Assembly: GCF_024346355.1 (NCBI RefSeq)
Contig: NZ_JAGQCU010000006.1
Span: 62,001-126,000 of the forward strand
Direction of reading: 5' to 3'
DNA: 64,000 nucleotides
From: Cyanobium sp. ATX 6A2
GTDB taxonomy: Bacteria > Cyanobacteriota > Cyanobacteriia > PCC-6307 > Cyanobiaceae
Shown here: piece by piece, positions 10,951 through 59,564 of the stretch
How the letters are laid out: each line of letters opens with the position of its first letter
Position numbering within the stretch: position 1 is the first letter of the stretch
The notes under the pieces: generated by a model
Told to the model about the DNA's origin: nothing
Database searches by the model: none
What the model saw: the letters and a program-made list of their open reading frames with translations, nothing else
Translations under genes and position numbers: made by a program

Positions 10951-11452
10951 CGGGCCCATCGAGCTGCTGCCAGAAACTGGCATCCAGCTCCAGGCCCAGC
11001 ACTGCCGCCATCTGCGCCAGTCCCTGGCGGCAGTTGAGGCCGTTCCCGGCAGACCAGTGATCCAGCAGGTAGAGGCGGTGGGTGAGCCACAGCTCCAGGG
11101 CCTCGGGAGCGAAACGGATGCCTTCGCTGCGGCTGAAGCCATGGGGCAGGAGCATGGCCACATGGCGGGTGAGCTGCCCGCTGCTCCGCTCGATCAGCAA
11201 CGGCAGCCAGGGGTGGTGCGCATCGGCCCGCAGGGTCCAGAGGCGCGGTTCCGGGATCTCGGAGAGTTCGCGGGGATCGTCATCCGCCCGCGGCCAGTCG
11301 TACTGAAGCTCCAGTGTGCCGGCGGCGTTCAGCAGATCAGCCGGTGCCAGGGCGGCCCAGCCGGCCAGGGGGGAGAGATCGAGGCTGCGGATCGCCGCGG
11401 CGGGAACACGCAGGGATCGATCCGCAGAGGACGGGTCGCATTCAGCGGACAC
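10943..11452 (-). CDS. CRR6-family NdhI maturation factor
   Basis: About 169 residues from GTG 11452 (VSAECDPSSADRS); an ATG at 11536 would add 28 residues of doubtful composition. The segment SLDLSPLAGWAALAPADLL and the C-terminal ALELWLTHRLYLLDHW are typical of CRR6, a protein that in plants and Synechocystis assists assembly of the NdhI subunit of the NDH-1 complex. This fits the NDH-1-dependent CO2 uptake genes elsewhere in the window. It overlaps the ligase-like gene by 8 bp and is likely co-transcribed with it. Confidence 0.75.
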   Translation of the reverse strand: MSAECDPSSADRSLRVPAAAIRSLDLSPLAGWAALAPADLLNAAGTLELQYDWPRADDDPRELSEIPEPRLWTLRADAHHPWLPLLIERSSGQLTRHVAMLLPHGFSRSEGIRFAPEALELWLTHRLYLLDHWSAGNGLNCRQGLAQMAAVLGLELDASFWQQLDGPDG

Positions 11453-20437: not shown

Positions 20438-20444
20438 GCCGAGC

Positions 20445-40013: not shown

Positions 40014-40087
40014 CGGGGCGTGGCGCAGCTTGGTAGCGCGGGTGCTTTGGGAGCACTAGGTCGCAGGTTCGAATCCTGTCGCCCCGA
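40014..40087 (+). tRNA. tRNA-Pro (anticodon UGG)
   Basis: Acceptor stem CGGGGCG (40014-40020) pairs with CGCCCCG (40080-40086), followed by discriminator A. The D-arm contains GCGCAGCTTGGTAGCGC, the anticodon loop TTTGGGA reads UGG, and the T-arm is GCAGGTTCGAATCCTGT. CCA is not encoded. Everything to the right until about 58 kb is accessory, so this tRNA is a likely integration site. Confidence 0.95.
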
Positions 40088-40111
40088 CTGACTTCTCAGG
40101 GATTGGCCAAT

Positions 40112-40947: not shown

Positions 40948-41910
40948 ATGGCCGCATCCACCACCACCCGCCGCCGCAAGAAGTTCGATGGCCCCTCGCC
41001 CGAGGAGGCGATGGTGCGCGATCTGATCGAGCTCCTCGAGGCCGGTGTCACGCCCTGGCGCAAGCCCTGGGATTGCCACGGCGGTGGCGTCCACATCAAT
41101 TTCCTCACCGGCCGGGCCTATCGCGGCGGCAATCCGATCCTGCTGGAGCTGGGGATGGCCATGCGCGGTGCCTCCCTGCCCTTCTGGTGCGGCTTCGCCG
41201 ACGCCAGGAAGCTCGGCATCGTTCCCCGCAAGGGCACCAAGTCGGTGCGCATCCTCCGGCCCCAGCTGCACTCCCGCGAGGAGGAGAGCGAGGGCGGCGA
41301 GAAGGTGCTGCACAGCTGGGCCAGCTATCGCCCGGTGCCGGTGTTCAATGCCTGCGATCTGGAGGGCGAGGCGCTCGCGGGGCTGATCGCGGCCCGCATG
41401 CCCGAGGCCACAGAGCGGCCGGCCATCGAGCCGATCGCCACTGCCGAGCAGGTGCTGCAGGCCTGGCCCGTGCCGGTGGGCTGGGGCGGTGAGCGGGCCT
41501 GCTACAGCCCGAGCCTCGATGCCATCAAGCTCCCCGAGCGGCAGAGCTTCCACGGGGCCGCGGCGCTCTATGCCACCTGGGCCCACGAATGCATCCACTC
41601 CACCGGCCACGAGTCGCGGCTCAAGCGCGATCTCTCCGGCAGCTTCGGGTCCAGGCTCTATGCCCGCGAGGAGCTGGTGGCCGAGCTGGGCAGCGTGCTG
41701 ATCGGCCAGCGCCTGCAGATCGGCTGTGAGCTCAGCAATCACGCGGCCTATCTGGAGCACTGGATCGCCGCCCTGCGCGAGTCCCCCAGGGTGCTGCTGC
41801 AGGTGATCAGCGAGGCGCGGCGTGCGGTCGATCTGATCTGCCCAGAGGCGCCGGCCCCCGATCGGGAGCCCGAGGCCGCGGCGGCTGAGGCCGAGGCCAT
41901 CGCCGCCTGA
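40948..41910 (+). CDS. ArdC-like ssDNA-binding protein with zincin metallopeptidase domain
   Basis: The 320-residue protein has an N-terminal ArdC-type single-strand-binding domain (LIELLEAGVTPWRKPWDC, NFLTGRAYRGGNPILLELGM, VPRKGTKSVRILRP). Its C-terminal domain is zincin-like, with HECIHSTGHESRL as the metal site near residue 213 and EELVAELGSVLI supplying a further ligand. ArdC proteins of plasmids protect incoming single-stranded DNA and counter restriction. Its presence suggests the element moves or replicates through ssDNA, or defends itself; this is inference. Confidence 0.88.
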   Translation: MAASTTTRRRKKFDGPSPEEAMVRDLIELLEAGVTPWRKPWDCHGGGVHINFLTGRAYRGGNPILLELGMAMRGASLPFWCGFADARKLGIVPRKGTKSVRILRPQLHSREEESEGGEKVLHSWASYRPVPVFNACDLEGEALAGLIAARMPEATERPAIEPIATAEQVLQAWPVPVGWGGERACYSPSLDAIKLPERQSFHGAAALYATWAHECIHSTGHESRLKRDLSGSFGSRLYAREELVAELGSVLIGQRLQIGCELSNHAAYLEHWIAALRESPRVLLQVISEARRAVDLICPEAPAPDREPEAAAAEAEAIAA

Positions 41911-42184: not shown

Positions 42185-42616
42185 TCAGCCGTGCCGCATT
42201 GCAGCTCGGCGCTCCAGCTCGCGCAGCTCCCGCCACGCACGCACCACGTCCGCTGATCGCCGGTCCAGGTTGTGGAGGGTGCGCGAGTGCGGCCGGCGAC
42301 CGCCGGCCTGCATGCGCTCCACCATGAAGGCCCAGTGCTCGCGCTGCGCGCGCAACCGGGCCAGCCGATGCCGCGCAGCCGTGAGCTGTGATCGCAGCTG
42401 CTGGCGCTCGCTGCGGCTGGCTGCAGCAGGGCGAGCTGGTGGCGGGGGAAGAGCAGGCGCTGGCCGCACCGACCGGGCCTGCCCGAGCAGGGCCCCGGGC
42501 TGCAGGGTCAGGCCGACCGCGACCATCAGCAGCGGCAGGAAGCCAAGCAGGACAAACAGCGCCAGCACCAGCCGGGCCAGATCCCTTGCCTGGGGCAGGG
42601 CGATCGAGCCCGGCAC
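42185..42616 (-). CDS. Small membrane-anchored coiled-coil protein
   Basis: The 143-residue protein has one N-terminal transmembrane helix (LARLVLALFVLLGFLPLLMV), a Pro-rich linker and a long Arg-rich helix (SERQQLRSQLTAARHRLARL). The architecture resembles phage inner-membrane spanins or anchored adaptors, without sequence support. It is the last gene of the minus-strand structural operon, directly after the 58-residue gene. Confidence 0.55.
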   Translation of the reverse strand: MPGSIALPQARDLARLVLALFVLLGFLPLLMVAVGLTLQPGALLGQARSVRPAPALPPPPARPAAASRSERQQLRSQLTAARHRLARLRAQREHWAFMVERMQAGGRRPHSRTLHNLDRRSADVVRAWRELRELERRAAMRHG

Positions 42617-42793
42617 TCAGTTGGGCTCCTCGATCACCTCCCAACCCCGCAGCCGGAACCAGGCCGCGATCGGTGCCGCCAGGTGCGGCGGCACATCGAA
42701 CAGCCGGTGGTCGGGCTGGGGCCAGAACGGGATCTCACCCGCAAGGGCGCCAAAGCGGCGCTCACAGCGCAGGCGCACCAGGCCGCAGCTCAT
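42617..42793 (-). CDS. Small hypothetical protein of the structural operon
   Basis: The 58-residue protein (MSCGLVRLRCERRFGALAGE...) starts at an ATG that overlaps the stop of the upstream fibre-like gene (ATGA) and ends 1 bp before the membrane protein gene. The C-terminal half, rich in aromatic and Pro residues, looks folded. No family recognised. Confidence 0.6.
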   Translation of the reverse strand: MSCGLVRLRCERRFGALAGEIPFWPQPDHRLFDVPPHLAAPIAAWFRLRGWEVIEEPN

Positions 42794-43953
42794 GCTCGCC
42801 TCGGCCACAGCACACCAGCGCCAGGGCGGCTGGAGCCCCCGCCGTCGCCGTCACCGCCGCCAGAGAGCAAGGGGCTCTGGCTCACCAGTGGATGGTTCAG
42901 GGCGCCGAACAGGCCGCGGCTGATGGGCGCCCACTCGCTCACCTCATCGATCGGGTTGGCGCCGCCGATGAAGTGCTCGACCATCGGCTCAGCCCTGAGC
43001 AGCTCTGCCGTGGAGGCCCAGGGCGTCCAGGGGAAGGTGGCCGCCCAGGTGCCAAAGCCGTCCAGCTGCTGCGGCTCGGGATCGGCCTCATAGAACAGCA
43101 TCGGATGATCCGTGCCCTGCTCATTGAGGACGTAGAACGTCACCCCCTGATCGCTGGTAATCAGGCAGGTGCTGAGGTTGAACAGGCGGCCGATCCACAG
43201 CGGCCCCTGGCAGACGATCACAGGTGAGAGCTGGAAGCGGTCGAACACACCATCGGCCGCGGGCGGGAAACACAGCAGCACCGGGTGGTTGATGTAGCGG
43301 CCGCGCTGGCCATAGCGCTGAGGGGTGTAATCACCGACCAGGGACTCGCCATTGCGCACCATGCCGCAGGCGAGGGTGCCGCCGCTGTCGCGCAGCATCA
43401 CCACCCAGCGCTGCGTCACCTGATCAAAGAACAGCACGATCACAGAACTGTTGACGAGGTGGTGGCGGAGCAGCAGGAACTCGGTGCCGGGGGTGGTGTC
43501 GAACGCCACCGACAAGGAGCCGTTGCCGTTGTCACCCGAATAGGAGCCGTAGCGGTAGCTCCAGGTCCGCATCCGGTAGGTCAGCAGGTTCGGCGCTGTG
43601 CCATAGCCACCGTTGCTGGCGTCGTCCAGGTAGTCGGCAGCAGGGCAGATGAACCAGCGCCCGTCAAGCGTGAACACCGCACCAGTGCCGCTGGGCATCG
43701 TGTGAACGCCAAAGACCGCTGGATCCTGCGGGTGGCCGAGGGACAGCACGATCCCGAAGGCGCCGGCCGCGGCGGAGCTGTCGTGATCGCGCAGCACCTG
43801 CAGCGGGTAGTCCTGCTGCACCGGGTTGCCCGCGATCGCAGCCACAAAGGCATGGACGGCATCAGTGACCCGGCGGCCGGTGGTGCCCGGCTCCGCCGAG
43901 AGCCATTCGTAGGTGCCGGGCCCGTAGTTGATGGCCCCCTCGCTGCGGGGCAT
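42790..43953 (-). CDS. Fibre-like virion protein paralogue 3 with SSRPGAGVLWPRR tail
   Basis: The 387-residue protein is paralogous to the preceding 418-residue gene: both contain (Q/I)VxRDHxSS, LGHPxxxxVFGxH, DxSNGGYG, and PGTEFLLL...VLFFDQVTQRW. It ends with a Gly/Asp-rich linker (SGGGDGDGGGSSRPGAGVL) and the tail WPRRA. Predicted mainly beta, with no domain I recognise. It is translationally coupled to the neighbours on both sides (ATGA overlaps). A role as tail-fibre, receptor-binding or capsid-surface protein is inferred from operon position. Confidence 0.65.
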   Translation of the reverse strand: MPRSEGAINYGPGTYEWLSAEPGTTGRRVTDAVHAFVAAIAGNPVQQDYPLQVLRDHDSSAAAGAFGIVLSLGHPQDPAVFGVHTMPSGTGAVFTLDGRWFICPAADYLDDASNGGYGTAPNLLTYRMRTWSYRYGSYSGDNGNGSLSVAFDTTPGTEFLLLRHHLVNSSVIVLFFDQVTQRWVVMLRDSGGTLACGMVRNGESLVGDYTPQRYGQRGRYINHPVLLCFPPAADGVFDRFQLSPVIVCQGPLWIGRLFNLSTCLITSDQGVTFYVLNEQGTDHPMLFYEADPEPQQLDGFGTWAATFPWTPWASTAELLRAEPMVEHFIGGANPIDEVSEWAPISRGLFGALNHPLVSQSPLLSGGGDGDGGGSSRPGAGVLWPRRA

Positions 43954-45209
43954 CAATCAGGCCTTCGGGGATAGAGCACGCCAGTGGCCGGGCGGCTGCT
44001 GCCCCCTCCCCCGCCGCCGCCACCTCCTCCGCCAGCGGCCTGCAGCTGCCTGCGGTAGAGGGGGTTCTGGAGCACACCAGCGGCGCCGAGCACATCAACG
44101 TCGAACTCGTGCAGACCCTCAATCGTCGCGCCGCTGATCGTGAAGATCTCCGGCTGCTCCGCATACGGGGCACGGAACAGATCGAGGGGCTCACCCACTG
44201 GTGTTTCATGCCATGCCATTAACGGCTCCTCAAGAGGAAACCAGCCCGGTGGCACCACCACCGAGGCCGGCTCTGGTGCCTCGTACCAAAGATCCCAGCC
44301 GTGAACAGGAAACGTCGCAGTGGATCTGCCCACCAGTTGATACAGGCCGCTCGGCAGCTCAGGCAGCACAAACCGCCTGCGGTGGCCGCCGTATTGATCG
44401 ACATAGCCAACCCAGAACGGCTCCGGCAGCAGCGTCAACGGCCAACGGCTGTAGAGCGGAGAGATTGTGTTCAAGACATTGGCGCTGAACCCAAAGCGGA
44501 GGTAGCCGGGGTGCATCAGGTAGTTGCAGGCTCCCAGCTCCGTCGACTGGAGCTGGTCGAACAGGGTGAGAACCGCAGGATTGACAGTCACGACTCCATT
44601 GCGAACGGAGGAGGACTGGACGCTGCTGTTGCCGCGCTGCATCCGATGCGACACCCAGGCCTGCAGCGCCTCGCTCCAATGCACCAGCACGATGAGCACC
44701 TCCGCCGTTTGGTAGATGCACAGCAGGAAGAATTCAGCGCCCGGATCGTCCTCGGCAATGATCCGAATGTCGGTATCAACCGATGGGCCGTAGTTGAGAT
44801 GCAGCGTCATGTTCTGCCCCCAATGCTGCAGACAGGCATTCGTGTTGCCAGTGCTCACAGACCCATAGCCACCATTGCTGGTGTCGTTGGTGTAGTCACT
44901 CCAGAAGCGCGCGAAGTAACGGCCCGATGAGAAGCGATTGGGCTCTGCCGTGATGTTGTGGAAACCAAAGACCTGGGCTGAATCCGGGTGGCCGAGCTTC
45001 CACACGAAGCCATGGCGCAGCCCATCCGTGGAGCTGCTGTGATCGCGGATCACCTCGATCTGGTGCTGCTCCTTGCCCGGGTTGGTATTCACCGCAGCGG
45101 CCCAGGCCGCAAAGCGTTGATCGAGCATGAAGCCAGCCGAATCAGGCGCGTTCGTGCACCAGTCCCACTCGAGCAGAGGCCATCCCCGGGTGCACTGAAC
45201 GCGGGTCAT
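43953..45209 (-). CDS. Fibre-like virion protein paralogue 2 with polyglycine and SSRPATGVLYPRR tail
   Basis: The 418-residue protein shares its core with the genes on either side (IEVIRDHSSSTDG, LGHPDSAQVFGFHN, NDTSNGGYGSVS, PGAEFFLLCIYQTAEVLIVL). Near the C-terminus an 11-residue polyglycine run leads into SSRPATGVLYPRRPD. Starts and stops overlap both neighbours by 4 bp or less. The function is unknown; the coupled paralogues could form a hetero-oligomeric fibre or adhesin. Confidence 0.65.
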   Translation of the reverse strand: MTRVQCTRGWPLLEWDWCTNAPDSAGFMLDQRFAAWAAAVNTNPGKEQHQIEVIRDHSSSTDGLRHGFVWKLGHPDSAQVFGFHNITAEPNRFSSGRYFARFWSDYTNDTSNGGYGSVSTGNTNACLQHWGQNMTLHLNYGPSVDTDIRIIAEDDPGAEFFLLCIYQTAEVLIVLVHWSEALQAWVSHRMQRGNSSVQSSSVRNGVVTVNPAVLTLFDQLQSTELGACNYLMHPGYLRFGFSANVLNTISPLYSRWPLTLLPEPFWVGYVDQYGGHRRRFVLPELPSGLYQLVGRSTATFPVHGWDLWYEAPEPASVVVPPGWFPLEEPLMAWHETPVGEPLDLFRAPYAEQPEIFTISGATIEGLHEFDVDVLGAAGVLQNPLYRRQLQAAGGGGGGGGGGGSSRPATGVLYPRRPD

Positions 45210-46099
45210 GGCAGCGCCGGAGAACCGTCCCTGTAGCGGAGGGCCAGGCCGGTGTTGCTCACCAGCACCCACTCGGCGCCATCCGCCGTGCGCAGCACCA
45301 CGCCCACGTTGTAGGTGCGGGTGTAGCTGGCAAGCGGCAGCGGCGGCAGCAGCGGGAGGATCACGCGGGGGCTCAGCAGCGCCGGGTCCGTGCTGTGAAC
45401 GGCGTTCAGCACCCAGTGCGGGCGCGGCAGCAGGGCGTGCAGCGTGCCGCCGCTGTAGCGGTAGAGCTGCATCGCCGTGCGCCACTGCTGGATCGAGGCC
45501 GCCCAGCCAATGAACAGGCAGATCTCCCGCAGGTGGGCGGAGTGATCGCTGCCCGCGAACAGATCACTGCAGAGGGTCCAGTGCCCGGTGTTCGCATCCT
45601 TGGCGATGTAGAGCACCATCCCGCGGCCGCGGGTGTCGGTGCTGCGGTTGAAGCAGAAGCAGAAGAACTCCTGGCCCGGATCCAGGCTCCAGCCCGCATA
45701 GGCGATCACCGGCAGGGAGCTGTAGAAGCGGGCGGTGCGGAACTGGTTGAGCGGCCCGTCAACCAGGCCGTGGGGGGCGCCGTAGCCGGCTTCTGGATCC
45801 CAGGTGCTGGCCAGGCCCACCGCCTGGCGGATGGTCTGGGCCGAGAGGGAGGTGAGCCACTGGAGCATGAACTGCAGCGGGGCACCCTCGACCTCCACAT
45901 CGAGGGTGGCGCGGATCGTCCAGCCGATCACTCCCTCCTGCGCGTCCGGGGCCACCACCACCTCGAGCAGCTGCTGGGGGTTCTGGAGATTGGCCGCCGC
46001 CATCCAGGTGAGCAGGTGGCCGTGCACCTCCATCAGCAGGGGGTAGAGGGGATCGCCCAGATCGCCCCGGCGGCTCAGGTCGCGGAAGGTGATCGCCAT
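45206..46099 (-). CDS. Fibre-like virion protein paralogue 1
   Basis: The 297-residue protein is a more distant relative of the next two genes: SLDPGQEFFCFCFNRSTDTR and a following D-x-N/V-T-x-x-W segment match their PG-(A/T)-EF motif, but it lacks the glycine tail. It begins [20 protein letters not shown], a segment resembling virion-associated N-termini. It overlaps the preceding 136-residue gene (TGATG). Confidence 0.62.
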   Translation of the reverse strand: MAITFRDLSRRGDLGDPLYPLLMEVHGHLLTWMAAANLQNPQQLLEVVVAPDAQEGVIGWTIRATLDVEVEGAPLQFMLQWLTSLSAQTIRQAVGLASTWDPEAGYGAPHGLVDGPLNQFRTARFYSSLPVIAYAGWSLDPGQEFFCFCFNRSTDTRGRGMVLYIAKDANTGHWTLCSDLFAGSDHSAHLREICLFIGWAASIQQWRTAMQLYRYSGGTLHALLPRPHWVLNAVHSTDPALLSPRVILPLLPPLPLASYTRTYNVGVVLRTADGAEWVLVSNTGLALRYRDGSPALP

Positions 46100-46509
46100 C
46101 AGGCCGCCAGCACCAGGGCATCGACGCTCAAAGAGGCCTCGGCCGGCACCGCGAGCGTGGTTCTCAGCAGTGCCAGCAGCAGGGGGCTGGGGACCAGCTC
46201 AGCGCTGGCCCAGCTGATCCCTGGCGGCAACAGCAGCTGGGGCACTCCTGCGGTGAACAGCAGATCGGCCACCACCCCGGAGCTGGGCTGCGGGTCCTGC
46301 TCCATCGGCCGGCCGGCATCCAGCAGCCGGGCCGCATCCGAGACGTAGAAGCTCAGCCAGCCCGGCACGCTGCAGGCCACCTCCAGCAGCAGCCCGGCGC
46401 TGCCCAGGGCAGTGAACTGCAGGGGAGTCACCGCCGGCCCGGCCGCCACGGTTGCTGTCAGCTGCTGCTGCCGGCGAGCGCTGGCCGTCCTCTCAACCCA
46501 CATCGCCAT
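46099..46509 (-). CDS. Hypothetical structural-operon protein
   Basis: The 136-residue, mostly beta/hydrophobic protein ([35 protein letters not shown]) starts 10 bp after the collagen-like gene. Similar small beta proteins in virion operons form baseplate or fibre-base layers, but there is no sequence family to cite. Confidence 0.6.
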
Positions 46510-46519
46510 CAGCTGGGCC

Positions 46520-47584
46520 TCAAGGGATCACAGCCACCCGGCGGATCGCACGGGTCGGCCTGGAGACGTTCTTGTTGCCGGCCAACAGCATCCCGTTGTC
46601 GAAGAACACACCGCGGATCTGGGTCGCCGTCGGGGCCTGCGTGGAGCTGGCGTAGGTGGCAGCATCAAAGGCCTGCACCTGGCCATCGCGGAAGGCGAGA
46701 ACGCTGGTCTGGCTGGGGTTGGAGTCAAAGAACCCTCCAGCGCCGTATTCACCAGCAGGCGGAACCATGTGGGGGTTCACGCCATCACCCGGCTCCTCGG
46801 AGTTGAAGGCCTCGCTCGCATCGCCGGGCTTGAACTGGCGGTAGAGCGCGATGAGCTCGTAGCGCGACGGCACGTACCAGTCGTCGTAGCCGCCGATCGC
46901 CAGCCCCCGCGCCCAGGCCGCTGCCGGGTAGAGGGCAGCGCCGGCCGCCAGCGCGGCCTCGGTATTGGTGAAGCCGTCGAACTCGCTGGCGTAGCCGCTG
47001 CCAGCGGTGTTGGTGGTGCGCCAGACCAGGGACGTTTGGCCGCCAGACTTCGGCGCCACGACCAGTGCATGGGTCGCGATGCCGTCGGCGCTGTCAGACC
47101 ACAGGCCGGCGTAGAAGCCGCCCTCAAACGCGCCACCGAGTGCCGGCAGATCGCCGATCGGGATCCCAGCAGGCGCCTCGCCCAGGGAGTACACATCGCC
47201 CGTCGCCATGTCGAGGTACAGGTCGCCGGGAAGTGAGCCCTCGATCACGGCAGGCGGAGCACCGGTGCCGACGAACCAGCCGGTGCCACGCGGGCCCGCT
47301 CCGCCAGCCGGGCCAGGCGGCCCCTGGATCGAGCCGCCCTCCACCCAGGCAGTGGTGGCGGCATCCCAGACGTAGAGCTTGTCGTTCTCGTCCGCGACGA
47401 TGTAGGAGTCGCCCTGCTGCTGGCCAGAAGCAGGCAGGTCGGCAAAGGTCGGCACGGAGCCGTGGAAAACCAGGCCCATCCCGGCTGGACCAGCTGGGCC
47501 CGGTGGCCCGTCCGCGCCGGGGCCGCCGGGAGGCCCCGGGAGGCCCTGGGGTCCACGGATCGATCCGGTGTTGGTCCAGCTCAT
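46520..47584 (-). CDS. Collagen-like fibre protein with Lcl/DUF1566-type C-terminal domain
   Basis: The 354-residue protein has two Gly-X-Y segments, [20 protein letters not shown] near residue 10 and [13 protein letters not shown] near 88. They are separated by a [20 protein letters not shown] module, and [15 protein letters not shown] follows. The C-terminal ~190 residues match the Lcl/DUF1566 fold ([20 protein letters not shown]), as in Legionella collagen-like adhesin and phage fibres. ATG 47584 was preferred to an in-frame GTG two codons upstream. This is a classic virion- or surface-adhesin layout. Confidence 0.82.
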
Positions 47585-47681
47585 CAGCACAAGGGGCCGC
47601 TCTGATCCCTATTGCCATTGATGATTTGGGAACCCCACCAGCACGGGCCTGACCCGCCTGTTGCTGTTGAGCGCCCACAGC

Positions 47682-48413
47682 TCAGGGCAGGGCTGCAGCC
47701 CGCATCCTCACGGAATTGGGTGCCCAGTTGGCAATGCGCTGGTTCGCCGAGAAGTCCCATGGATTCGGGGCCGGGTCCGCGAACGCCACCGTGCGGCGCA
47801 GCACCGTGAAGTAGTTGGCGGCGTTGCTGCCATTGCAGCCGAGGTTCACCGCCGAGGAGAGATTGAGAGCGCGCAGAGTGGCAGTGGAGCTATGGCGCAC
47901 CCCAAGCCAGTACTGCCGCCCGCTGTCAAACGTGAAATCAAGCCCCTCGAACTTGTAGCCAACCGTCGCAGAGGAGAGCGGCAGCGACTCAAACAGCAGT
48001 TCGTCAGGCCAGCCCTCGTCGGTGGAGCCATAGATCACCAGCTTGAGTTCTGAGCCATTGACCGCCGTGCTCACCGAGACACCGATCTCGTCAATCCGCA
48101 GCGGTTGGGAGGTGTAATAAGGTGCCAGGTTGATCTCATTGGCGACACCGGCTCGCGTTGCATTTGCTGTGCCGTGAAAGGCGTTGTCGTAATACTCGCC
48201 GGCGATCACGCCACCAGCATTGGGACTGGCGAAGTTCGAGATAGCGCTGATGCGTCGATTGAGGTCGCTCCGGTTGCCTCGGGCCGCAACAACCTCGGCC
48301 TCCAGCTGATCGAAACTGGCCTGCGGCACACCGCCACCCTCGCCAGCAGGCCCGGGCGGCCCGGGTGGGCCCATCGGCCCTTTGATCGAGTGCCCCAGGG
48401 GCCACCAGCCCAT
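47682..48413 (-). CDS. Collagen-like fibre protein with C-terminal beta domain
   Basis: The 243-residue protein has a short N-terminal collagen stretch (GPMGPPGPPGPAGEGGG), a helical linker (SFDQLEAEVVAARGNRSDLN) and a beta-rich C-terminal domain (INLAPYYTSQPLRIDEIGVS). The domain resembles choice-of-anchor/receptor-binding folds of phage fibres. A GCTGGYAA-type dyad lies 18 bp before the start. Confidence 0.75.
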   Translation of the reverse strand: MGWWPLGHSIKGPMGPPGPPGPAGEGGGVPQASFDQLEAEVVAARGNRSDLNRRISAISNFASPNAGGVIAGEYYDNAFHGTANATRAGVANEINLAPYYTSQPLRIDEIGVSVSTAVNGSELKLVIYGSTDEGWPDELLFESLPLSSATVGYKFEGLDFTFDSGRQYWLGVRHSSTATLRALNLSSAVNLGCNGSNAANYFTVLRRTVAFADPAPNPWDFSANQRIANWAPNSVRMRAAALP

Positions 48414-48430
48414 GCCCAGCCCTTCCCCAT

Positions 48431-48450
48431 CTGCTGGCTGTTACCAGCAG
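48431..48450 (-). promoter_or_regulatory. Element motif, copy before the 243-residue collagen-like gene
   Basis: On the minus strand CTGCTGGTAACAGCCAGCAG, which contains GCTGGTAACAGCC and is an inverted repeat. It ends 18 bp before ATG 48413. Same core (GCTGGYAANNG) as copies at 49.27, 51.28, 54.64, 56.14, 52.45 and 56.57 kb. Confidence 0.6.
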
Positions 48451-48463
48451 CAGGGGGGGCTGC

Positions 48464-49243
48464 TCAGCCCACCAGCTCGTAGACGCTGCCGCTGAGGCGG
48501 TCCAGATAGAAGTCGCCCGGTGCCGGCGGCGGTTGGGCGGCGGCCTGCCATTCCGGCGTCGGCGCGCCATCGCCGCCGTACCAGCGCACGCCGCGGCTGG
48601 CGGCACCGGAGCCGTGCATCACCGTCAGCGCCGGCTGGCCGTCCACCGGGCTGGGCAACAACGCCAGGCCGCCCTCAGGGTGGAGGCGCAGCTGCCACTG
48701 CTCGTTGCGGCTGCCATCGAAGGCGTTGCCGATCAGGCCCGCACCAGGCACCAGGGCCATGCCAGGCCCCACCGACGGCGCATCCTGCCCAGGCCTCGGC
48801 GCCATCACCGGCAGCGGGCAGCCAAACAGGGCCACCTCGAGGCTGGCCACCAGCAGCCCCACCTGGACCGTGGCGATCATGTCCTCGGGGAAGGGATACA
48901 GATGCCGGGGTTCGGGCACGCGTGGATCGAATGGCGACCACGGCACCGTCTCGCTGCTGCCATCGCCCCAGGTGATCTGGATCGGCTGGGGCGGCAGCGA
49001 TCGCGGGTTGATCGTCAGCACCACACCACGGCTCAGCGCCGGCTCGTCCCAGCGCCGTGGTGACGGCATCCAGTACAGCTCCAGGTCGAGCTGGGGCACC
49101 GGTGCCTCCCGAAAGCCAAGCGCCAGCCAGCGCGGCACCTCATGGGGCACGACCCAGTCACCACGGCCCGGGCAACCCACAGGGGGAAGCACGCGCACCC
49201 GATCGCCGTACTGCTGCGCGCCCGGGGCCAGGGGGTAGGGCAT
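48464..49243 (-). CDS. Structural protein with PKD-like segment and fibre module
   Basis: The 259-residue protein contains PIQITWGDGSSETVPWSPFD, a PKD-type strand-turn near residue 90, and ends with PGDFYLDRLSGSVYEL. That ending matches the [15 protein letters not shown] module of the collagen-like protein downstream. The middle is a possible beta-sandwich (GNAFDGSRNEQWQLRLHPEG). Start ATG 49243; two further in-frame near-cognate starts lie just upstream. Probably a virion or fibre protein. Confidence 0.65.
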   Translation of the reverse strand: MPYPLAPGAQQYGDRVRVLPPVGCPGRGDWVVPHEVPRWLALGFREAPVPQLDLELYWMPSPRRWDEPALSRGVVLTINPRSLPPQPIQITWGDGSSETVPWSPFDPRVPEPRHLYPFPEDMIATVQVGLLVASLEVALFGCPLPVMAPRPGQDAPSVGPGMALVPGAGLIGNAFDGSRNEQWQLRLHPEGGLALLPSPVDGQPALTVMHGSGAASRGVRWYGGDGAPTPEWQAAAQPPPAPGDFYLDRLSGSVYELVG

Positions 49244-49261
49244 CAGCAACACTCCGCGCTA

Positions 49262-49276
49262 CTGGCCTTTGCCAGC
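49262..49276 (-). promoter_or_regulatory. Element motif, copy before the 259-residue gene
   Basis: Minus strand GCTGGCAAAGGCCAG, 19 bp before ATG 49243. Matches GCTGGYAANNG with a CCAG arm. Confidence 0.55.
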
Positions 49277-49345
49277 GGCCATGCAAAAGCGCCAGCCACA
49301 GGCCGAAAGACCCAAGGCTGGCGCTCGGCAAACAAGCGGCAGGGA

Positions 49346-49849
49346 TCAGATCTGGAGATCAGGGACCACAGCCTGATCGGCACCACCAGGGTCAAGCACC
49401 TCAGCGTCCAGGGCGGCCTCGCCATCGACCACAGCAGCAGCGGAGGAGCCGTCCGGTTCAGCAGGGCCACCCAATGCGGCCGCTTCCAGGGCTTCTGCCT
49501 GCAGGGCCTCGACCTCCCGCAGCAACCCATCCTTGTTCTTCCTGCCGTCGAGCTTGACCCCGAAGTGCAGCTCGGCCGCCTCCAGGATCTCGGGCTTGGT
49601 CAGGCCCTCAAAGTCGAGCACATCAACCACGGCCCCATCACCTGCAGCCTCATCGGCAGCAGGCAGGAGTTCGGAACCATCCACTCCGAGATATGGCGGC
49701 TGGTCCTCCTCCTCCAGCTCCCTCACCGGCGGGTGCACCGTCCAGCCCAGAGTCCGCCAGCCATCGGCATGGACCGGATACACCACCCGATCCGTTTCGC
49801 CCCCCTTGGAGATCCGCAGCATCCCACTCGGAACCACAATCGCGCTCAT
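49346..49849 (-). CDS. Small structural protein with HeH/LEM-like helical segment
   Basis: The 167-residue acidic protein has a beta-rich N-terminal half (IVVPSGMLRISKGGETDRVV) and a C-terminal helix-extended-helix-like segment (GLTKPEILEAAELHFGVKLD, then NKDGLLREVEAL). Proteins of this type often follow the major capsid gene in phages as head-associated proteins. It lies 18 bp after the decoration-like gene. Confidence 0.6.
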   Translation of the reverse strand: MSAIVVPSGMLRISKGGETDRVVYPVHADGWRTLGWTVHPPVRELEEEDQPPYLGVDGSELLPAADEAAGDGAVVDVLDFEGLTKPEILEAAELHFGVKLDGRKNKDGLLREVEALQAEALEAAALGGPAEPDGSSAAAVVDGEAALDAEVLDPGGADQAVVPDLQI

Positions 49850-49867
49850 GGGTTACTCCGTTCAGGA

Positions 49868-50293
49868 TCAGTAGGTGAGGCCGACGTAAGCGCCAGCCGG
49901 GGCACCAGGAACCTCCGGCACCAGCACCCGCGCATAGACCATGCAGTGCGGGTTCACGTTCAGCGCATCAGGAGCAGCCACCTGCAGCAGCGAGCCGCTG
50001 ATCGGCGCCTCCACATGGCCGCCGGCGGCCGGGATCGCCACCTCGGCCGCCGGCACCCAGGTGCCCATGGTGCCGTCCTTCAGTTCCGGCGCCACCTCCA
50101 GGGTGAAGGTCACAGCAGCGCTGTGACCCGGGTGCGACGCCGTGAAGGTGAACACATCCGCCGCATCCAGCGGCGTGCTCAGTTTCACGGTGGTGCCAGC
50201 AGCAATCACCCGCTCCTCCTGGTCCGTGGCGGTGTAATTGATCCACCCCAGCAAGGTGGTGGTGGCGTCAAGAAGTCGGTTGGCCATGGTCAT
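49868..50293 (-). CDS. Capsid decoration-like protein
   Basis: The 141-residue, mainly beta, Ala/Thr/Val-rich protein (MTMANRLLDATTTLLGWINY...) follows the capsid gene by 42 bp, the usual position for head-decoration or head-stabilising proteins. There is no direct family match. A second ATG at 50287 (MANRLL) is an equally good start. Confidence 0.58.
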   Translation of the reverse strand: MTMANRLLDATTTLLGWINYTATDQEERVIAAGTTVKLSTPLDAADVFTFTASHPGHSAAVTFTLEVAPELKDGTMGTWVPAAEVAIPAAGGHVEAPISGSLLQVAAPDALNVNPHCMVYARVLVPEVPGAPAGAYVGLTY

Positions 50294-50335
50294 GTCCTCA
50301 GCAGAAAGGTGGTCAGAAATGGCGGTCAGCCCGCC

Positions 50336-51235
50336 TCAGTTCACGGCCGGGCCGATGTTGAACAGCCGCCCCACAGAGCGGTCATGGCAGACGGCAAAGC
50401 CCACGTACCAATCCACCCGGGTGCGGAACACCGGGGCGTCCTGCACTTCGCCGAAGTCCCGCACCGAGATGCCGTAGCGGTTCTCGAACGGGCCCTGCAG
50501 GCCCGTCACCATCTCGTCGCCCATGGCGCAGACGTAGAAGCTGGTCGTGCTGCCGGCCTCCCCGAACCCGAGTACCGGGTAGCCGTTGGCGTCCTCATCC
50601 AGCACCAGGATCTCGGTGTCCTCGAACCAGTGCCGGCCGTCGATCACCTGATACAGATCACCGCCGGCCTCACGGCTGGCGTGGCTGATCTGGCGCCGGC
50701 CGGGCTTGCTGGTGATCAGCACCTTCTCGCCGCCGTTGGCGTTCACCGAATCCACCAACTGCTCCAGCCGGGTGAGGTTGACGGTGCCGCCGCCGTTGTC
50801 GATGGTCTGCGGGCCGCCGGGCTCCAGCCGCTTGCTCAGACCATCGAAGGCACGCGGGTCAAAGCTCGCGTCGCCGTTGATGATCGCCGCCTCCAGCGTC
50901 AGCCGCATCGAGCGCACCTTCTGCTCGGTCTGGCTGGCTCTGGCCTCCGGGCCGTTGAGGTCCACGATCGAGCGGTCCACATCGAGATCGCCACCGAACA
51001 GGTGCACGAACTCGGTGTCGTTCTTGATCGCGCCCACGCTCCGGCGGTAGCCCTCGTTCACCGCCCGGAAACCGACGCGGGGGAGCTTGACCTCCTTGGC
51101 GAACTTCAGGGCACCACCGGCGAGGTTGCGGAACGGCAGCCGGCTCAGCAGTTGACCCTCAGCGAAGGTCTTGGTGACAGCGAGCCGATCCACCCGCGTC
51201 TCGTGCTTCATCGCCTCGATCAGGGTCAGGCCCAT
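50336..51235 (-). CDS. HK97-fold major capsid protein (phage major structural protein family)
   Basis: The 299-residue protein begins MGLTLIEAMKHETRVDRLAV and contains LLSRLPFRNLAGGALKFAKE, VKLPRVGFRAVNEGYRRSVG, HLFGGDLDVDRSIVDLNG and RLTLEAAIINGDASFDPRAF. These match the compact (~300-residue) HK97-type capsid group found in many siphovirus prophages. The order 'GGDxDVDxxI...INGD...FDGL' is highly typical. ATG 51235 is preceded by GGAG at good distance. No scaffold, protease, portal or terminase gene is adjacent. Confidence 0.85.
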   Translation of the reverse strand: MGLTLIEAMKHETRVDRLAVTKTFAEGQLLSRLPFRNLAGGALKFAKEVKLPRVGFRAVNEGYRRSVGAIKNDTEFVHLFGGDLDVDRSIVDLNGPEARASQTEQKVRSMRLTLEAAIINGDASFDPRAFDGLSKRLEPGGPQTIDNGGGTVNLTRLEQLVDSVNANGGEKVLITSKPGRRQISHASREAGGDLYQVIDGRHWFEDTEILVLDEDANGYPVLGFGEAGSTTSFYVCAMGDEMVTGLQGPFENRYGISVRDFGEVQDAPVFRTRVDWYVGFAVCHDRSVGRLFNIGPAVN

Positions 51236-52472: not shown

Positions 52473-53207
52473 ATGGCCACCATGTCTCCGCAGCGGTTCC
52501 TCGACCGCTTCCTTCACTTCAAAGGCCAGGAACAGCAGGGGCGCGGCGTGCTGCTGCTCCACCAGGCGATCAGCCAGCTGGAGGGCAGCGAGGCGATCCT
52601 GCGCGAGGACGCGCCCTGGGCCCTCGCGTTCAGCACCACCCCCGCGCAGCCGGCGAGCACCACCATCGCGCCGCTCGATCCCCGCGGCAGCGAGGAGGCC
52701 GGCATGGCAGGTCCGGCCATCAAAGCGCCGGTGAAGGTCGGTGACTCCTACCTGCTCGTCAACGACCGCGACCAGGACATGGAGGCCTACGACCACACCG
52801 GCAAGCTCCTGTGGAAGGTGCCGGCGTTGGCCCGCGGCCAGGGCGCCGACACCGAGTGGCGCCACGTCGGCACCGACACCCCGCCGGGCCTGTACAAGCT
52901 CGGCACCGTCTATCGGGACTACGAGGCCAATCCCAACCCGCCCAGGGACGCCACCCTGCAGGCCTACGGCTGGTTCAGCTTTGAGATGATCGAGCTGGAG
53001 GGCCAGAAGTCCAGCATCGGCCGCGCCGGGATCATGCTCCACGGCGGCGGCACCGCCAACGGCTGGCCTGGGGCCTGGGCACCGCAGCAGAAACTCCTGC
53101 CCACCCGGGGCTGCATCCGCGTCCACAACATCGTGCTGCGGGACAAGGTTCTGCCCCTCTACGAGCAGGGCACCGTCTACGTCGGGGTGTTTCAGGAAAA
53201 AAAGTAG
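52473..53207 (+). CDS. L,D-transpeptidase (YkuD) domain protein, zero frame of a probable frameshift fusion
   Basis: The 244-residue protein has a YkuD catalytic core: HVGTDTPPGLYKLGTVYRDY, IMLHGGGTANGWPG with the catalytic His near residue 190, and KLLPTRGCIRVHNIVLRD with the catalytic Cys near 214. Such enzymes make or cut 3-3 peptidoglycan links. There is no signal peptide, unlike host L,D-transpeptidases, so delivery would need a holin or virion. The frame ends GAA AAA AAG TAG, a classic -1 slippery site. Confidence 0.85.
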   Translation: MATMSPQRFLDRFLHFKGQEQQGRGVLLLHQAISQLEGSEAILREDAPWALAFSTTPAQPASTTIAPLDPRGSEEAGMAGPAIKAPVKVGDSYLLVNDRDQDMEAYDHTGKLLWKVPALARGQGADTEWRHVGTDTPPGLYKLGTVYRDYEANPNPPRDATLQAYGWFSFEMIELEGQKSSIGRAGIMLHGGGTANGWPGAWAPQQKLLPTRGCIRVHNIVLRDKVLPLYEQGTVYVGVFQEKK

Positions 53208-53230: not shown

Positions 53231-53782
53231 GAGCACACCAACCTGCAGAGCTGGTTCGCCTTCCTCACAGGTCCGGATGTGGAAACCGCCAGCAAGGGCC
53301 GCATCCGGCCGCTCACCGCCGCCGAGGCCTGCGGCTTCATCGCCTGCGTCATCGTCGAGACCGGCAGGCCCGATCTCGATCAGCTGGATGTGATCGAGGC
53401 CGGCAGCCGCCGCGGTCGCGGCGCCATGCAGTACACCGGCCCGCGTCGTCTCGCCTATGACCGTGCCCGTGAGCAGGCGGCTGCCTGCGGGATCGACACC
53501 ACCGGCAACAGCTGGCAGCAGCGGTATTTCGCTGAGGAATACGCAGGGCTGCACGATCCGCCCCAGGGCTCGCTGATCGGCTGGACCCGCATCTTTGAGC
53601 AGCGCCCCCAGGGCCTGGACCCGGCTGCAGCGGCGGCCTACTGGACTGGTTCAGCAGCATCCCGCACCGGCTACTTCCGTCCCGGGGTGCCGCACCTGCA
53701 GCGCCGACAGCAAGAGGCCGGGCGGCTGTGGGCGCTGCACCAGGGCGGGCAGCTGCAGCTCAGTGCCCGGCCCATGAATTGA
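53204..53782 (+). CDS. Lysozyme / phage tail-tip-lysozyme-like domain, -1 frame extension
   Basis: From base 53204 the -1 frame reads VGSGPALRPEHTNLQSWFAF... for ~190 residues. The segments CGFIACVIVETGRPDLDQLD, GRGAMQYTGPRRLAYDRARE and NSWQQRYFAEEYAGLHDPPQ resemble muramidase-type tail lysozymes (catalytic Glu in VETG). The only in-frame start codon near the beginning is GTG 53279, which would drop the first ~25 conserved-looking residues. A frameshift product fused to the L,D-transpeptidase is therefore the better model. The last 23 bases overlap the convergent GAF-like gene. Confidence 0.6.
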   Translation, partial: VGSGPALRPEHTNLQSWFAFLTGPDVETASKGRIRPLTAAEACGFIACVIVETGRPDLDQLDVIEAGSRRGRGAMQYTGPRRLAYDRAREQAAACGIDTTGNSWQQRYFAEEYAGLHDPPQGSLIGWTRIFEQRPQGLDPAAAAAYWTGSAASRTGYFRPGVPHLQRRQQEAGRLWALHQGGQLQLSARPMN

Positions 53783-54648: not shown

Positions 54649-54821
54649 CCGGCGGATCCAGCTCGATCACCACCAGCGGCGGCTGCCAGCGCTGCTCGGC
54701 AGAGGGCGACTGCAGATCAGGGGCGGCCGGGTGGGGCGGGGCAGCCCGCGGCTCGGTCTGCGCTCAGCTTGGCCACTCGTTCCTCGTGGCCTGGGTGCGC
54801 GCGTTCTTCGCGGCACGGGCC

Positions 54822-55400
54822 ATGCCCCGCACCCACTCCAGGGCCGATGCCCTGTTCCACCAGTTCCAGCCCCTCGCCGAGTCCATCGCCCTGGGCTTCC
54901 ACCACAAGGGCGGCCGCTTGATCGAGCTCGAGGATTGCCGCCAGGTCGCACGCATGGCGCTCTGGCTCGCCTGCCAGCGCATCGAGGATCCGATCTCCGC
55001 TCCCGCCTATCTCTCGCGCTCCATCCGCGGCGCCCTGCTCCATCACGCCCGCGATCTCGGCCGTGCCATCCGCGTGCCGCGGCGGGAGCAGGAAAAGCCC
55101 GGGGCCAGGCACCCCTGGGTGCTCACCTCCCTCGATGCACCGCTGCCCAGCGGCGAGGGCACGCTGCTCGATCTTGTTGCCGATGAGGCGCCGCAGCCCG
55201 CCCCGCTCAGCGCTGAGGCCGAGGCGCTGGAGCAGCTGCTCGATCAGCTGCCGGCCCGCCAGGCGGCCGTGATCCGGCTGCGGCACCTGCAGGGCCTCAG
55301 CTGCAGGGAGGTCGGCGCCCAGCTCGGCGTCAGTGCCATGAGCATCTGCCGCGATGAGCGCAAGGCCCTCGCCCAGCTGCGGCAGCAGCTGCAGGCCTGA
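54822..55400 (+). CDS. Sigma-70-family RNA polymerase sigma factor encoded by the element
   Basis: The 192-residue protein has a region 2 (ALFHQFQPLAESIALGFHHK, DCRQVARMALWLACQRIEDP, AYLSRSIRGALLHHARDLGR) and region 4 (LLDQLPARQAAVIRLRHLQG, CREVGAQLGVSAMSICRDER), with a ~45-residue linker. Such short two-domain factors direct polymerase to special promoters. ATG 54822 is used; GTG 54786 in frame would add 12 residues. It is the only sigma gene seen in the element and a natural reader of its repeated motifs. Confidence 0.85.
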   Translation: MPRTHSRADALFHQFQPLAESIALGFHHKGGRLIELEDCRQVARMALWLACQRIEDPISAPAYLSRSIRGALLHHARDLGRAIRVPRREQEKPGARHPWVLTSLDAPLPSGEGTLLDLVADEAPQPAPLSAEAEALEQLLDQLPARQAAVIRLRHLQGLSCREVGAQLGVSAMSICRDERKALAQLRQQLQA

Positions 55401-57230: not shown

Positions 57231-57279
57231 GGCGCCGACGCCGCGAGGCGCGGTCGTGGTGTCCCACGCCTCTCCTGCC

Positions 57280-57495
57280 ATGGCTGCTCCTCAAGGCCCC
57301 TCCTGCCCCGTCCGCTTCCTGGTCGAGCATCACTACCCAGAAGGCCCCAAGGGCGGCGCTTCCCCCTGCGAAGTCCGCTTCTTTGGCCGCCGCGGCAAGC
57401 CCGTCAAGAAGATGCGCCTCATCCCCGCCGCCAAGGCCTTCGCGATCGCCCGCAAGCTGCAGGGCGCCAAGGGCAGCACCATCTCGGTGATCTGA
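57280..57495 (+). CDS. Small basic hypothetical protein
   Basis: The 71-residue protein (MAAPQGPSCPVRFLVEHHYP...) is Lys/Arg-rich with a compact beta-beta-alpha look (CEVRFFGRRGKPVKKMRLIP, AKAFAIARKLQGAKGSTISV). It may bind nucleic acid. Led by hairpin 4. Confidence 0.58.
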   Translation: MAAPQGPSCPVRFLVEHHYPEGPKGGASPCEVRFFGRRGKPVKKMRLIPAAKAFAIARKLQGAKGSTISVI

Positions 57496-57540: not shown

Positions 57541-57936
57541 TCAGCCGGTATCAAGGCATTCATGCTCACGCTCCACCGCTCCAGCCCTGGCGCGCTGACG
57601 GATCGGGCCGTCGCGGTCGGAGCGGAACAGCACCCGTGATCCAGGTGCCGCCGCCTGCAGGCCGGCCAGCAACTGCTCCAGCACCGCAGTGCTCAGCGGT
57701 GCGCGATTGCCCATCCCCTCGCGGCTGCTCAGCAGCAGCTCCAGTTCCGCACCGGCACGCAACTCCAGCAATACCTGCACCAAAAGGGCCCGCGGGCCTG
57801 CCGTCAGGGCGATCGAGGCGTTGCGGCCATCCAGCCAGGTGAAGGTGCCGCCCATCTCCCTGGCCAGCGCCGCCAGCGCAGCCCGAAACCCCTCGCCATC
57901 GGCGACAGGCGCGAGCAGGGCTTCCAGGCGGGCCAT
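57541..57936 (-). CDS. Hypothetical protein
   Basis: The 131-residue alpha/beta protein (MARLEALLAPVADGEGFRAA, GTFTWLDGRNASIALTAG, LLVQVLLELRAGAELELLLS) has no recognised family. It converges on the 71-residue gene. Confidence 0.5.
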   Translation of the reverse strand: MARLEALLAPVADGEGFRAALAALAREMGGTFTWLDGRNASIALTAGPRALLVQVLLELRAGAELELLLSSREGMGNRAPLSTAVLEQLLAGLQAAAPGSRVLFRSDRDGPIRQRARAGAVEREHECLDTG

Positions 57937-58935: not shown

Positions 58936-59079
58936 ATGTCCGACACCACTCCCCGCTTTGGTTTTGTCGCTTTCGCCGAAACCTGGAACGGCCGTCTGGC
59001 CATGCTCGGCTTCGTGATCGGCCTCGGCACCGAGCTGCTCACCGGCCAGGGCATCCTCTCCCAGATCGGTCTGGGCTGA
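58936..59079 (+). CDS. hli: High-light-inducible protein (HLIP)
   Basis: The 47-residue single-helix protein has the chlorophyll-binding motif ETWNGRLAMLGFVIGLGTEL. HLIPs bind chlorophyll and carotenoid, quench excitation and assist PSII assembly. An HLR1 site precedes it. Two tiny membrane ORFs follow at once. Confidence 0.93.
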   Translation: MSDTTPRFGFVAFAETWNGRLAMLGFVIGLGTELLTGQGILSQIGLG

Positions 59080-59327: not shown

Positions 59328-59564
59328 ATGACCAACACCCCCGCCAGCGACAAGTGGCTGCAGGAACGCACCACCGAGCAGATCCACATGGATCAGCTCA
59401 AGCGCGCTGAACTGTTCAACGGCCGCGCCGCCATGCTGGGCCTGGTGATCGGCGTCATCGTCGAAGGCCTCACGGGCTTCGGGATCGCCCACCAGATCGG
59501 CCTCGGAGCCCTGGTGGACGGCTACACCGCCTGCCGCACCCAGTTCCTGCCCTTCTGCTTCTGA
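59328..59564 (+). CDS. hli: High-light-inducible protein, longer form
   Basis: The 78-residue protein has a polar N-terminus and the motif KRAELFNGRAAMLGLVIGVI, then a C-terminal extension with two Cys (YTACRTQFLPFCF). Belongs to the longer picocyanobacterial HLIPs (~70 residues). It is likely part of the same hli cluster. Confidence 0.9.
   Translation: MTNTPASDKWLQERTTEQIHMDQLKRAELFNGRAAMLGLVIGVIVEGLTGFGIAHQIGLGALVDGYTACRTQFLPFCF

Follow-up and report, generated by a model that had tools for sequence, protein, structure and literature searches.

A run of minus-strand genes in Cyanobium sp. ATX 6A2 encodes a phage-type capsid protein and a series of fiber-like proteins in surroundings where no packaging gene was found, which raises the question of what kind of particle these genes could serve. 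The run lies at 42185-51235 of the analyzed window, the whole 64,000-nucleotide stretch at positions 62001-126000 of contig C43 (NZ_JAGQCU010000006.1) of genome G000 (GCF_024346355.1); C13 and C20 are other contigs of the same genome. The first-pass annotation of this stretch had considered either a domesticated, encapsulin-like shell or a satellite that borrows its packaging from a helper. The analysis presented here indicates that the operon is probably the capsid-and-fiber half of a large mobile element integrated at a tRNA-Pro gene, and that this element probably works as a head-complete, tail-less satellite in the manner of a capsid-forming phage-inducible chromosomal island (cf-PICI). 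Judged by gene content, the element encodes its own head, packaging proteins, two connector-like proteins (k1 and k2), sigma factors, lysis-type enzymes, an integrase, and defense cargo, and the copies in relatives carry predicted primase/helicase-type replication genes. The satellite idea survives, but the tail, and not the packaging machine, seems to be the missing part.

Capsid and Packaging Genes

The minus-strand gene run was confirmed, and so was its HK97-type major capsid protein (MCP; 299 aa, 50336-51235, minus strand), which matches the major head protein family phrog_212 (E-value 1.4e-52), Pfam GP7 (2e-14), and the capsid 3j4u (0.0023). PF05065, tried as a capsid probe, found nothing in the genome, in which phrog_212 recovers the single MCP; it is thus insensitive here. 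Downstream of the MCP gene follow a decoration-position protein (49868-50293, minus strand), which comes after the MCP in most loci and whose function is assigned by position, a conserved 167-aa protein (o167; 49346-49849, minus strand) with homologs in many MCP loci, two proteins with collagen-like N-termini (col1 and col2), and fiber-like proteins.

The family scans took in 22 proteins encoded between 40.8 and 56.9 kb of the window (20 in Pfam, 20 in PHROGs, and 18 in both) and gave no significant match to a portal, terminase, protease, tail-tube, or integrase family. A 79-aa protein at 57256-57495, scanned against Pfam only, has no Pfam family, and the open reading frame at 57541-57936 lies outside the scans. 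The tail-labeled matches in the window comprise tail-fiber families hit by col2 (at most 1.3e-15), a tail lysozyme below the cut-off, and two chance-level matches, namely col1 to phrog_819 (0.096) and the membrane-like protein at 42185-42616 to a head-tail connector family (0.26). Genes were called with an in-house script, and some starts fall inside longer open reading frames.

The absence of packaging genes, on which the first-pass annotation had built, holds for the window but not for the genome. Contig C13 carries a scaffold-like protein (C13:25182-26093; 26% identity to the P-SS2 scaffold, 4e-11), a portal (C13:27841-29424; 31% to the P-SS2 portal, 2e-43), the large terminase subunit (TerL; C13:33045-34580; Terminase_6C, 1.5e-6; 36% to S-CBS2 terL, 1e-82), and an integrase (C13:48149-49399; phrog_1, 9.5e-8). 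The gene order is scaffold-k1-k2-portal-sigma-TerL, as in relatives. Among the observations that would speak against it, the annotation had named a complete prophage with such genes at another locus of the genome, and this is largely what C13 provides. DISARM defense genes (DrmD, DrmMI, DrmA, and DrmB; C13:5443-21170) lie beyond the scaffold end of the packaging module. A second, degraded packaging copy is found at C20:8786-16540, where the TerL frame is open (92% to that of C13) and the portal is broken. The first 126 bases of C13 and C20 are identical, which may reflect a branch point in the assembly.

The assignments are supported by homologs in other genomes. In genome G005, a DUF4055 protein encoded close to the MCP module is a portal (30% to the P-SS2 portal, 1e-43), and viral-contig homologs match phrog_145 (portal, locus L117; 5.6e-18) and phrog_206 (scaffold; 3.9e-13). 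Neither a head maturation protease nor an HNH endonuclease was recognized among the families listed in scans of the elements, which show scaffold phrog_206 instead. In a portal search of 60 genomes, 10 gave a match, nine of them with an MCP match as well; G009 has a short portal fragment only, and G001 a weak MCP fragment without a portal. Between G000 and Synechococcus sp. GFB01 (G003), identity is 94% for the MCP, 96% for the portal, and 93% for TerL, and therefore the two halves appear to travel together.

Attachment Sites and Boundaries of the Element

An exact 66-bp repeat, composed of the 3' part of the tRNA gene plus 20 nt, occurs at 40043-40108 of the window (plus strand) and at C13:49525-49590, just outside the integrase gene. 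Its 38-nt core has two occurrences in the whole genome by exact search. This C43/C13 repeat is read as an attL/attR pair. The integration site is tRNA-Pro(tgg) at 40014-40088 (plus strand; ARAGORN), and an element sits at the equivalent site in G005 and SynAce01. Among the 20 of 32 direct-repeat families listed for 39-61.5 kb of the window there is no att pair, the partner being on C13.

The complete genome of SynAce01 (G106) contains an 83.7-kb element with 44-bp att copies at the same tRNA-Pro gene (11141-11214) and, for the second copy, at 94878. Its order is tRNA-Pro, fibers, MCP (20027-20965), lysin, sigma, ardC, about 36 kb of other genes, o172, scaffold, k1, k2, portal, sigma, terminase, replication genes, integrase, and att. 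The proteins of C43 and C13 match this element in the same order, except for some inverted cargo genes. Directly behind the att copy, at 97-108 kb, lies a second MCP-fiber operon, so that elements seem to stack at tRNA-Pro; a broken copy is present at 264 kb. In the single-contig genome G005, 42-bp att copies are 75.4 kb apart. In the metagenome-assembled genome (MAG) of Vulcanococcus sp. Clear-D1, one contig carries, at 84274-196505, a 56,093-bp unit twice in exact tandem. Three 46-bp att copies accompany this dimer, and the third of them lies at the 3' end of tRNA-Gly(ccc). The dimer could partly be an assembly effect, yet it gives the unit length. In G002, G006, and G009, tRNA-Pro(tgg) adjoins other variable genes, with an integrase-like gene beside it in G006, and the site therefore looks like an insertion hot spot.

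These boundaries bear on two of the competing explanations. The domesticated empty shell or cargo carrier, a capsid without portal, terminase, or mobility, would account for a window in which no packaging gene was found. It is nevertheless unsupported, because the packaging genes share the genome, the att repeat, and, in relatives, one element with the capsid; with portal, terminase, and scaffold co-inherited and the element att-bounded and mobile, this explanation is extremely improbable. A gene transfer agent, meaning a multi-locus, host-controlled particle that packages host DNA and is not a mobile element, would fit the location of the G000 phage genes on separate contigs, the head without an adjoining tail module, and the presence of a sigma factor. 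The att repeats, the integrase, the exact tandem dimer, several copies in some genomes, and a patchy spread (13 of 99 genomes, own included) stand against it and make it highly improbable.

Distribution and Gene Order in Relatives

In addition to these 13 genomes, a few of which hold the MCP only as fragments, MCP matches were found in at least 80 genome loci and 34 viral-contig loci. The 114 MCP loci examined (80 and 34, respectively) are partly non-independent: L002 and L186, an Aphanothece saxicola contig, agree in their gene coordinates, and L125 and L131 lie on one contig. Hosts include Cyanobium, Synechococcus, Vulcanococcus, Aphanothece, Aphanocapsa, picocyanobacterial MAGs, and one Microcystis elabens record. 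Relatives were grouped by bands of MCP identity (81-95, 71-75, and 55-67%) and not by a tree. The search for the same operon in related genomes, proposed in the first-pass annotation, succeeded: the operon order recurs, and the arrangement is therefore not due to chance.

In 76 of the 114 loci, the sequence upstream of the MCP gene extends for 9 kb or more; a scaffold gene is present in 54 of these, a portal in 41, and TerL in 20. None of the three lies within the examined flank (up to 10 kb) of close-relative loci (MCP 81-95%). A TerL scan returned 69 viral-contig loci, 34 at 54% identity or more; in the 27 of these examined, TerL is always followed by the portal, and a scaffold gene occurs in 24. 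A gene without a Pfam match precedes TerL in 25 of the 27 and is labeled by its position alone as a putative small terminase subunit (TerS). On contigs that hold both genes, the portal is upstream of the MCP on the same strand in seven cases, at 13 kb (GFB01), 21 kb (the L003 record), 21 kb (G105), 27 kb (G099), 32 kb (G102), 35 kb (G101), and 45 kb (SynAce01). Some genomes have the two on separate contigs, and a portal is present in 12 of the 14 genomes or records checked.

The cargo varies: DISARM is found on C13 of G000, BREX in L003, and a type I restriction-modification system in G005. Large genes upstream of the L003 MCP were tried as packaging genes and rejected, since two of them belong to BREX (PglZ and BrxL). 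G005-type copies carry a quite different post-capsid gene set (c11, c18).

Search for a Tail

The first-pass annotation had reported no tail tube or tape measure, and within search sensitivity no homolog of either has been recognized in the elements so far. BLAST searches with 70 P-SS2/S-CBS2 proteins against the 114 MCP loci gave no match for a tail tube or tape measure. Matches named as tail, fiber, structural, or lysin were limited to fiber-type proteins, lysin, and gp13, with S-CBS2 gp31 in 38 loci, P-SS2 gp87 in 38, the collagen-like gp52 in 5, lysin in 31, and gp13 in 2. A PHROG scan of 41 proteins of the G005 element (covered up to 1614.6 kb of 1648.8 kb) and one of G002 showed no tail family among the 25 of 42 families listed, and 47 of the 63 proteins of the Clear-D1 unit showed none among the 25 of 28 listed; the listed families concern replication (primase/helicase), regulation, defense-type functions, and scaffold. 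The major tail family phrog_1407 and the Neck1 family phrog_5 had no match in any of 11 host genomes, with positive controls in 2 of 14 and 5 of 14, respectively.

Pairwise HHalign comparisons of k2/k1 with P-SS2 gp61/gp62 and S-CBS2 gp11/gp13 gave E-values of 7.7e-5 to 9.9e-4, compared with 0.48-0.88 in three control pairs. In S-CBS2, gp11/gp13 stand just before the Neck1 protein, with the major tail protein further on, and the element thus appears to end with the connector. The k2 structure model (pLDDT 69) has no match in the Protein Data Bank (PDB) at E ≤0.001, and the k1 and k2 profiles gave no convincing PDB sequence match. In the compact head module of Cyanobium sp. FGCU6 (terS to fibB, about 17.8 kb), no protein is longer than 563 aa, so that no tape measure candidate stands out.

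These results bear on the strongest competitor, a temperate phage that is self-sufficient and would build a short tail from unrecognized small proteins of the fiber operon together with the k1/k2 connectors. Candidate tail proteins are o167, o262, a 270-aa protein of relatives, col1/col2, and the fib proteins. The elements own replication, lysis-type, sigma, fiber, and integrase genes, their 56-84 kb would suit a phage, and the operon protein o136 is kin to an S-CBS2 structural protein. The tail tube, tape measure, and neck genes of a complete temperate tailed phage were not found within the searches made, however. The FGCU6 module, the absence of phrog_1407 and phrog_5 matches in all 11 genomes, and the quite different post-capsid set of G005-type copies also argue against a phage, which is consequently a serious but rather unlikely alternative to the satellite.

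Fiber Operon and Selection

Downstream of o167 the operon continues, all on the minus strand, with o262 (48464-49252), col1 (47682-48413), col2 (46520-47590), o136 (46099-46509), fibA (45206-46099), fibB (43953-45209), fibC (42790-43953), o63 (58 aa, 42617-42793), and a small protein at 42185-42616. The conserved protein o262 has 60 homologs of 230-300 aa among the loci; its AF2 model (pLDDT 66) best matches a PKD domain in the PDB, which at E 0.095 is a weak resemblance. The two collagen-like proteins of the first-pass annotation are borne out: col1 matches phrog_25093 (1.7e-22, function unknown), and col2 matches tail-fiber PHROGs (best 1.3e-15) as well as Lcl_C (1.5e-6, below cut-off). ARAGORN also called a tRNA-Pro(ggg) inside col2, at 47486-47580, which was taken as probably false. 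For o136, the matches are phrog_9627 (1.3e-15, function unknown) and the S-CBS2 gp31 structural protein (CBS2_struct31; 40%, 2e-10).

Three tandem fiber-like paralogs had been proposed. Detectable paralogy is limited to fibB and fibC (28% identity, 2e-22), and fibA matches neither of them significantly in BLAST. Both fibB, with homologs in L002 and L003, and fibC, without a significant family, are fiber-like by position, and o63 has homologs near the fibers in L190 and L255. The proposed membrane protein at 42185-42616 has a hydrophobic N-terminus, the sole feature seen, and no significant family. Overlaps of 1-4 bp, ascribed to most genes, occur at only 4 of 11 junctions; one pair abuts, and six gaps measure 10-93 bp.

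Comparison with Aphanothece saxicola gave dN/dS ratios of about 0.1 for the MCP, 0.2 for o262, 0.3 for the decoration-position protein, 0.4 for col2, 0.7 for o136, and 0.9 for fibA (dN 0.59, dS 0.66), which evolves fast; for fibB the ratio is 0.5, with dS near saturation. A guarded head combined with fast fibers would fit a particle that meets changing receptors. The same values bear on the explanation that the loci are remnants of decayed prophages retained in a genomic island. Broken copies do exist (the C20 portal of G000 and the 264-kb copy of SynAce01), and such islands are termed relic or replication-defective in the accessible text of earlier reports (PMC2784084, PMC6337551). Across many genomes and contigs, however, the same tail-less module recurs with its reading frames open, the MCP is under strong purifying selection, and primase/helicase and integrase genes are present, which renders decay very unlikely as the explanation.

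Comparison with Known Systems

As described in the accessible part of PMC10690885, cf-PICIs encode their own capsid, portal, connectors, and terminase, while a helper provides the tail. The present element is similar in having its own MCP, portal, and large terminase, with no tail genes recognized within search sensitivity. It differs in size (56.1, 75.4, and 83.7 kb) and in carrying fibers, lysis-type enzymes, sigma factors, and defense systems. The likeness is one of gene content, and neither a maturation protease nor an HNH endonuclease was recognized here. According to the same source, as far as accessible, the Streptomyces satellites MulchRoom and MiniFlayer carry TerS, TerL, portal, scaffold, MCP, and adapter genes; in one of the Mulch/Flayer systems no tail-component genes were detected, a tail fiber forms part of a possible adsorption module in MiniFlayer, and MulchRoom has a tyrosine integrase (PMC10690885). 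By this partial description they lack primases, whereas the present elements possess primase/helicase genes, multi-gene fiber arrays, and large cargo.

The nearest phages are the cyanosiphoviruses P-SS2 and S-CBS2, with identities of 41% and 38% for the MCP, about 31-37% for TerL, and about 27-34% for the portal. Scaffold, sigma, and endolysin homologs are common to both sides. In P-SS2 and S-CBS2 the annotation includes a tape measure and tail genes, whereas none was recognized in the elements.

From the gene content and order, the att pairs, the integrase-family gene, and the co-inheritance, all read directly from the sequences, the following cycle may be proposed. The integrase would excise the element, which would then replicate, and the element's terminase would fill the head made of the operon MCP. 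The tail of a co-infecting P-SS2/S-CBS2-like siphovirus could then be joined by way of connectors akin to those of the phage itself. Element-coded, fast-evolving fibers might set host range or head display, and re-integration would take place at tRNA 3' ends, where the att repeats are observed.

Several points weigh against the satellite interpretation. The helper, the excision, the particle, and the tail borrowing are proposed from the gene content. C43 and C13 are unlinked by any contig and their ends have no long overlap, so that their union in one element, rather than as two island neighbors, is inferred because of SynAce01. Strain 1G10 carries a close-relative MCP and a portal on a single contig, but in reversed order and at a distance of 99 kb, and a portal is absent in 2 of 14 genomes or records checked (G104 and the 32-kb L002 record). 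The tail negatives in G005 and Clear-D1 rest on 25 of 42 and 25 of 28 families, and phrog_38654, to which the S-CBS2 tail protein comes closest, had no match in 11 genomes or in the controls and is thus uninformative. The connectors are only weakly similar to their phage counterparts (HHalign probabilities of 22-62%, with one match of 21 columns). A k1 homolog with LysM weakly matches the baseplate-hub family phrog_46 (0.0024), probably via LysM, and this match would also favor a complete phage. Finally, cf-PICIs are compact, at about 15 kb, a size that elements of 56-84 kb far exceed. Owing to its size, and with no protease, HNH endonuclease, or helper recognized, the element is not filed as a cf-PICI, though it may work like one.

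Related loci have been described under other names. The accessible text of PMC2784084 reports P-SS2-like terminase, integrase, sigma, and lysozyme genes in tRNA islands of RS9917, read as relics. In PMC6337551, as far as accessible, phiSynAce1 (65,524-73,790) is read as an 8.2-kb replication-defective prophage; it spans the portal-to-terminase genes, and here that locus is part of the 83.7-kb att-bounded element. A 49-kb prophage of Synechococcus elongatus, likened to the present elements by description only, is tRNA-integrated and cyanosiphovirus-like; on antirepressor overexpression it excised without particles, and its authors suggested a helper phage (PMC9239245, accessible part). In an Ace Lake population study, likewise available in part, predicted prophages had read depths far above that of the host, and those from an extra search were all at most 19 kb and likely remnants (PMC9716671). 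Tycheposons and related islands, according to the accessible descriptions, are tRNA-integrated and have tyrosine recombinases and variable cargo, at 4-200 kbp (PMC10872708, PMC10187409, PMC11389934). The tRNA att repeats and the phrog_1 integrase-family match seen here may be comparable. Tycheposons have a specific deep-branching recombinase and hallmark genes.

A broader and more tentative proposal, possible although somewhat doubtful, is that these loci form a widespread family hitherto known only as relic prophages. Its members would be head-complete, tail-less cyanosiphovirus satellites of 56-84 kb, with their own diversifying fibers (on the head or on a borrowed tail) redirecting host range, with defense systems shipped in the scaffold-capsid cargo slot, and possibly with adsorption free of a helper tail. 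No description of a tail-less satellite family in Cyanobium was found in the literature, most subscription papers being beyond the reach of the search. If true, relic prophages of Cyanobium, Synechococcus, and Vulcanococcus would be recast as satellites, a vehicle that moves defense islands between abundant phototrophs would be at hand, and the helper question would become testable in strains such as SynAce01.

Neighboring Genes

Between the tRNA and the operon, an ArdC-type anti-restriction protein is encoded at 40948-41910 (plus strand; ArdcN, 1.3e-19; MPTase-PolyVal, 9.6e-38), as it is near both SynAce01 MCP operons. On the other side of the operon, all on the plus strand, lie an L,D-transpeptidase (52473-53207; YkuD, 4.1e-6), whose slot holds an endolysin homolog in some relatives (L135, L137, SynAce01), a lysozyme-like protein (53279-53782; Phage_lysozyme2, Phage tail lysozyme, 3.2e-4, below cut-off), and the element sigma factor (54786-55400; Sigma70_r4, 6.2e-13; phrog_351, 8.6e-24). 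The small 79-aa protein o172 (57256-57495, plus strand) usually adjoins the scaffold gene in relatives. After it, the small proteins at 58936-59079 and 59328-59564 resemble, by their motif, high-light-inducible proteins.

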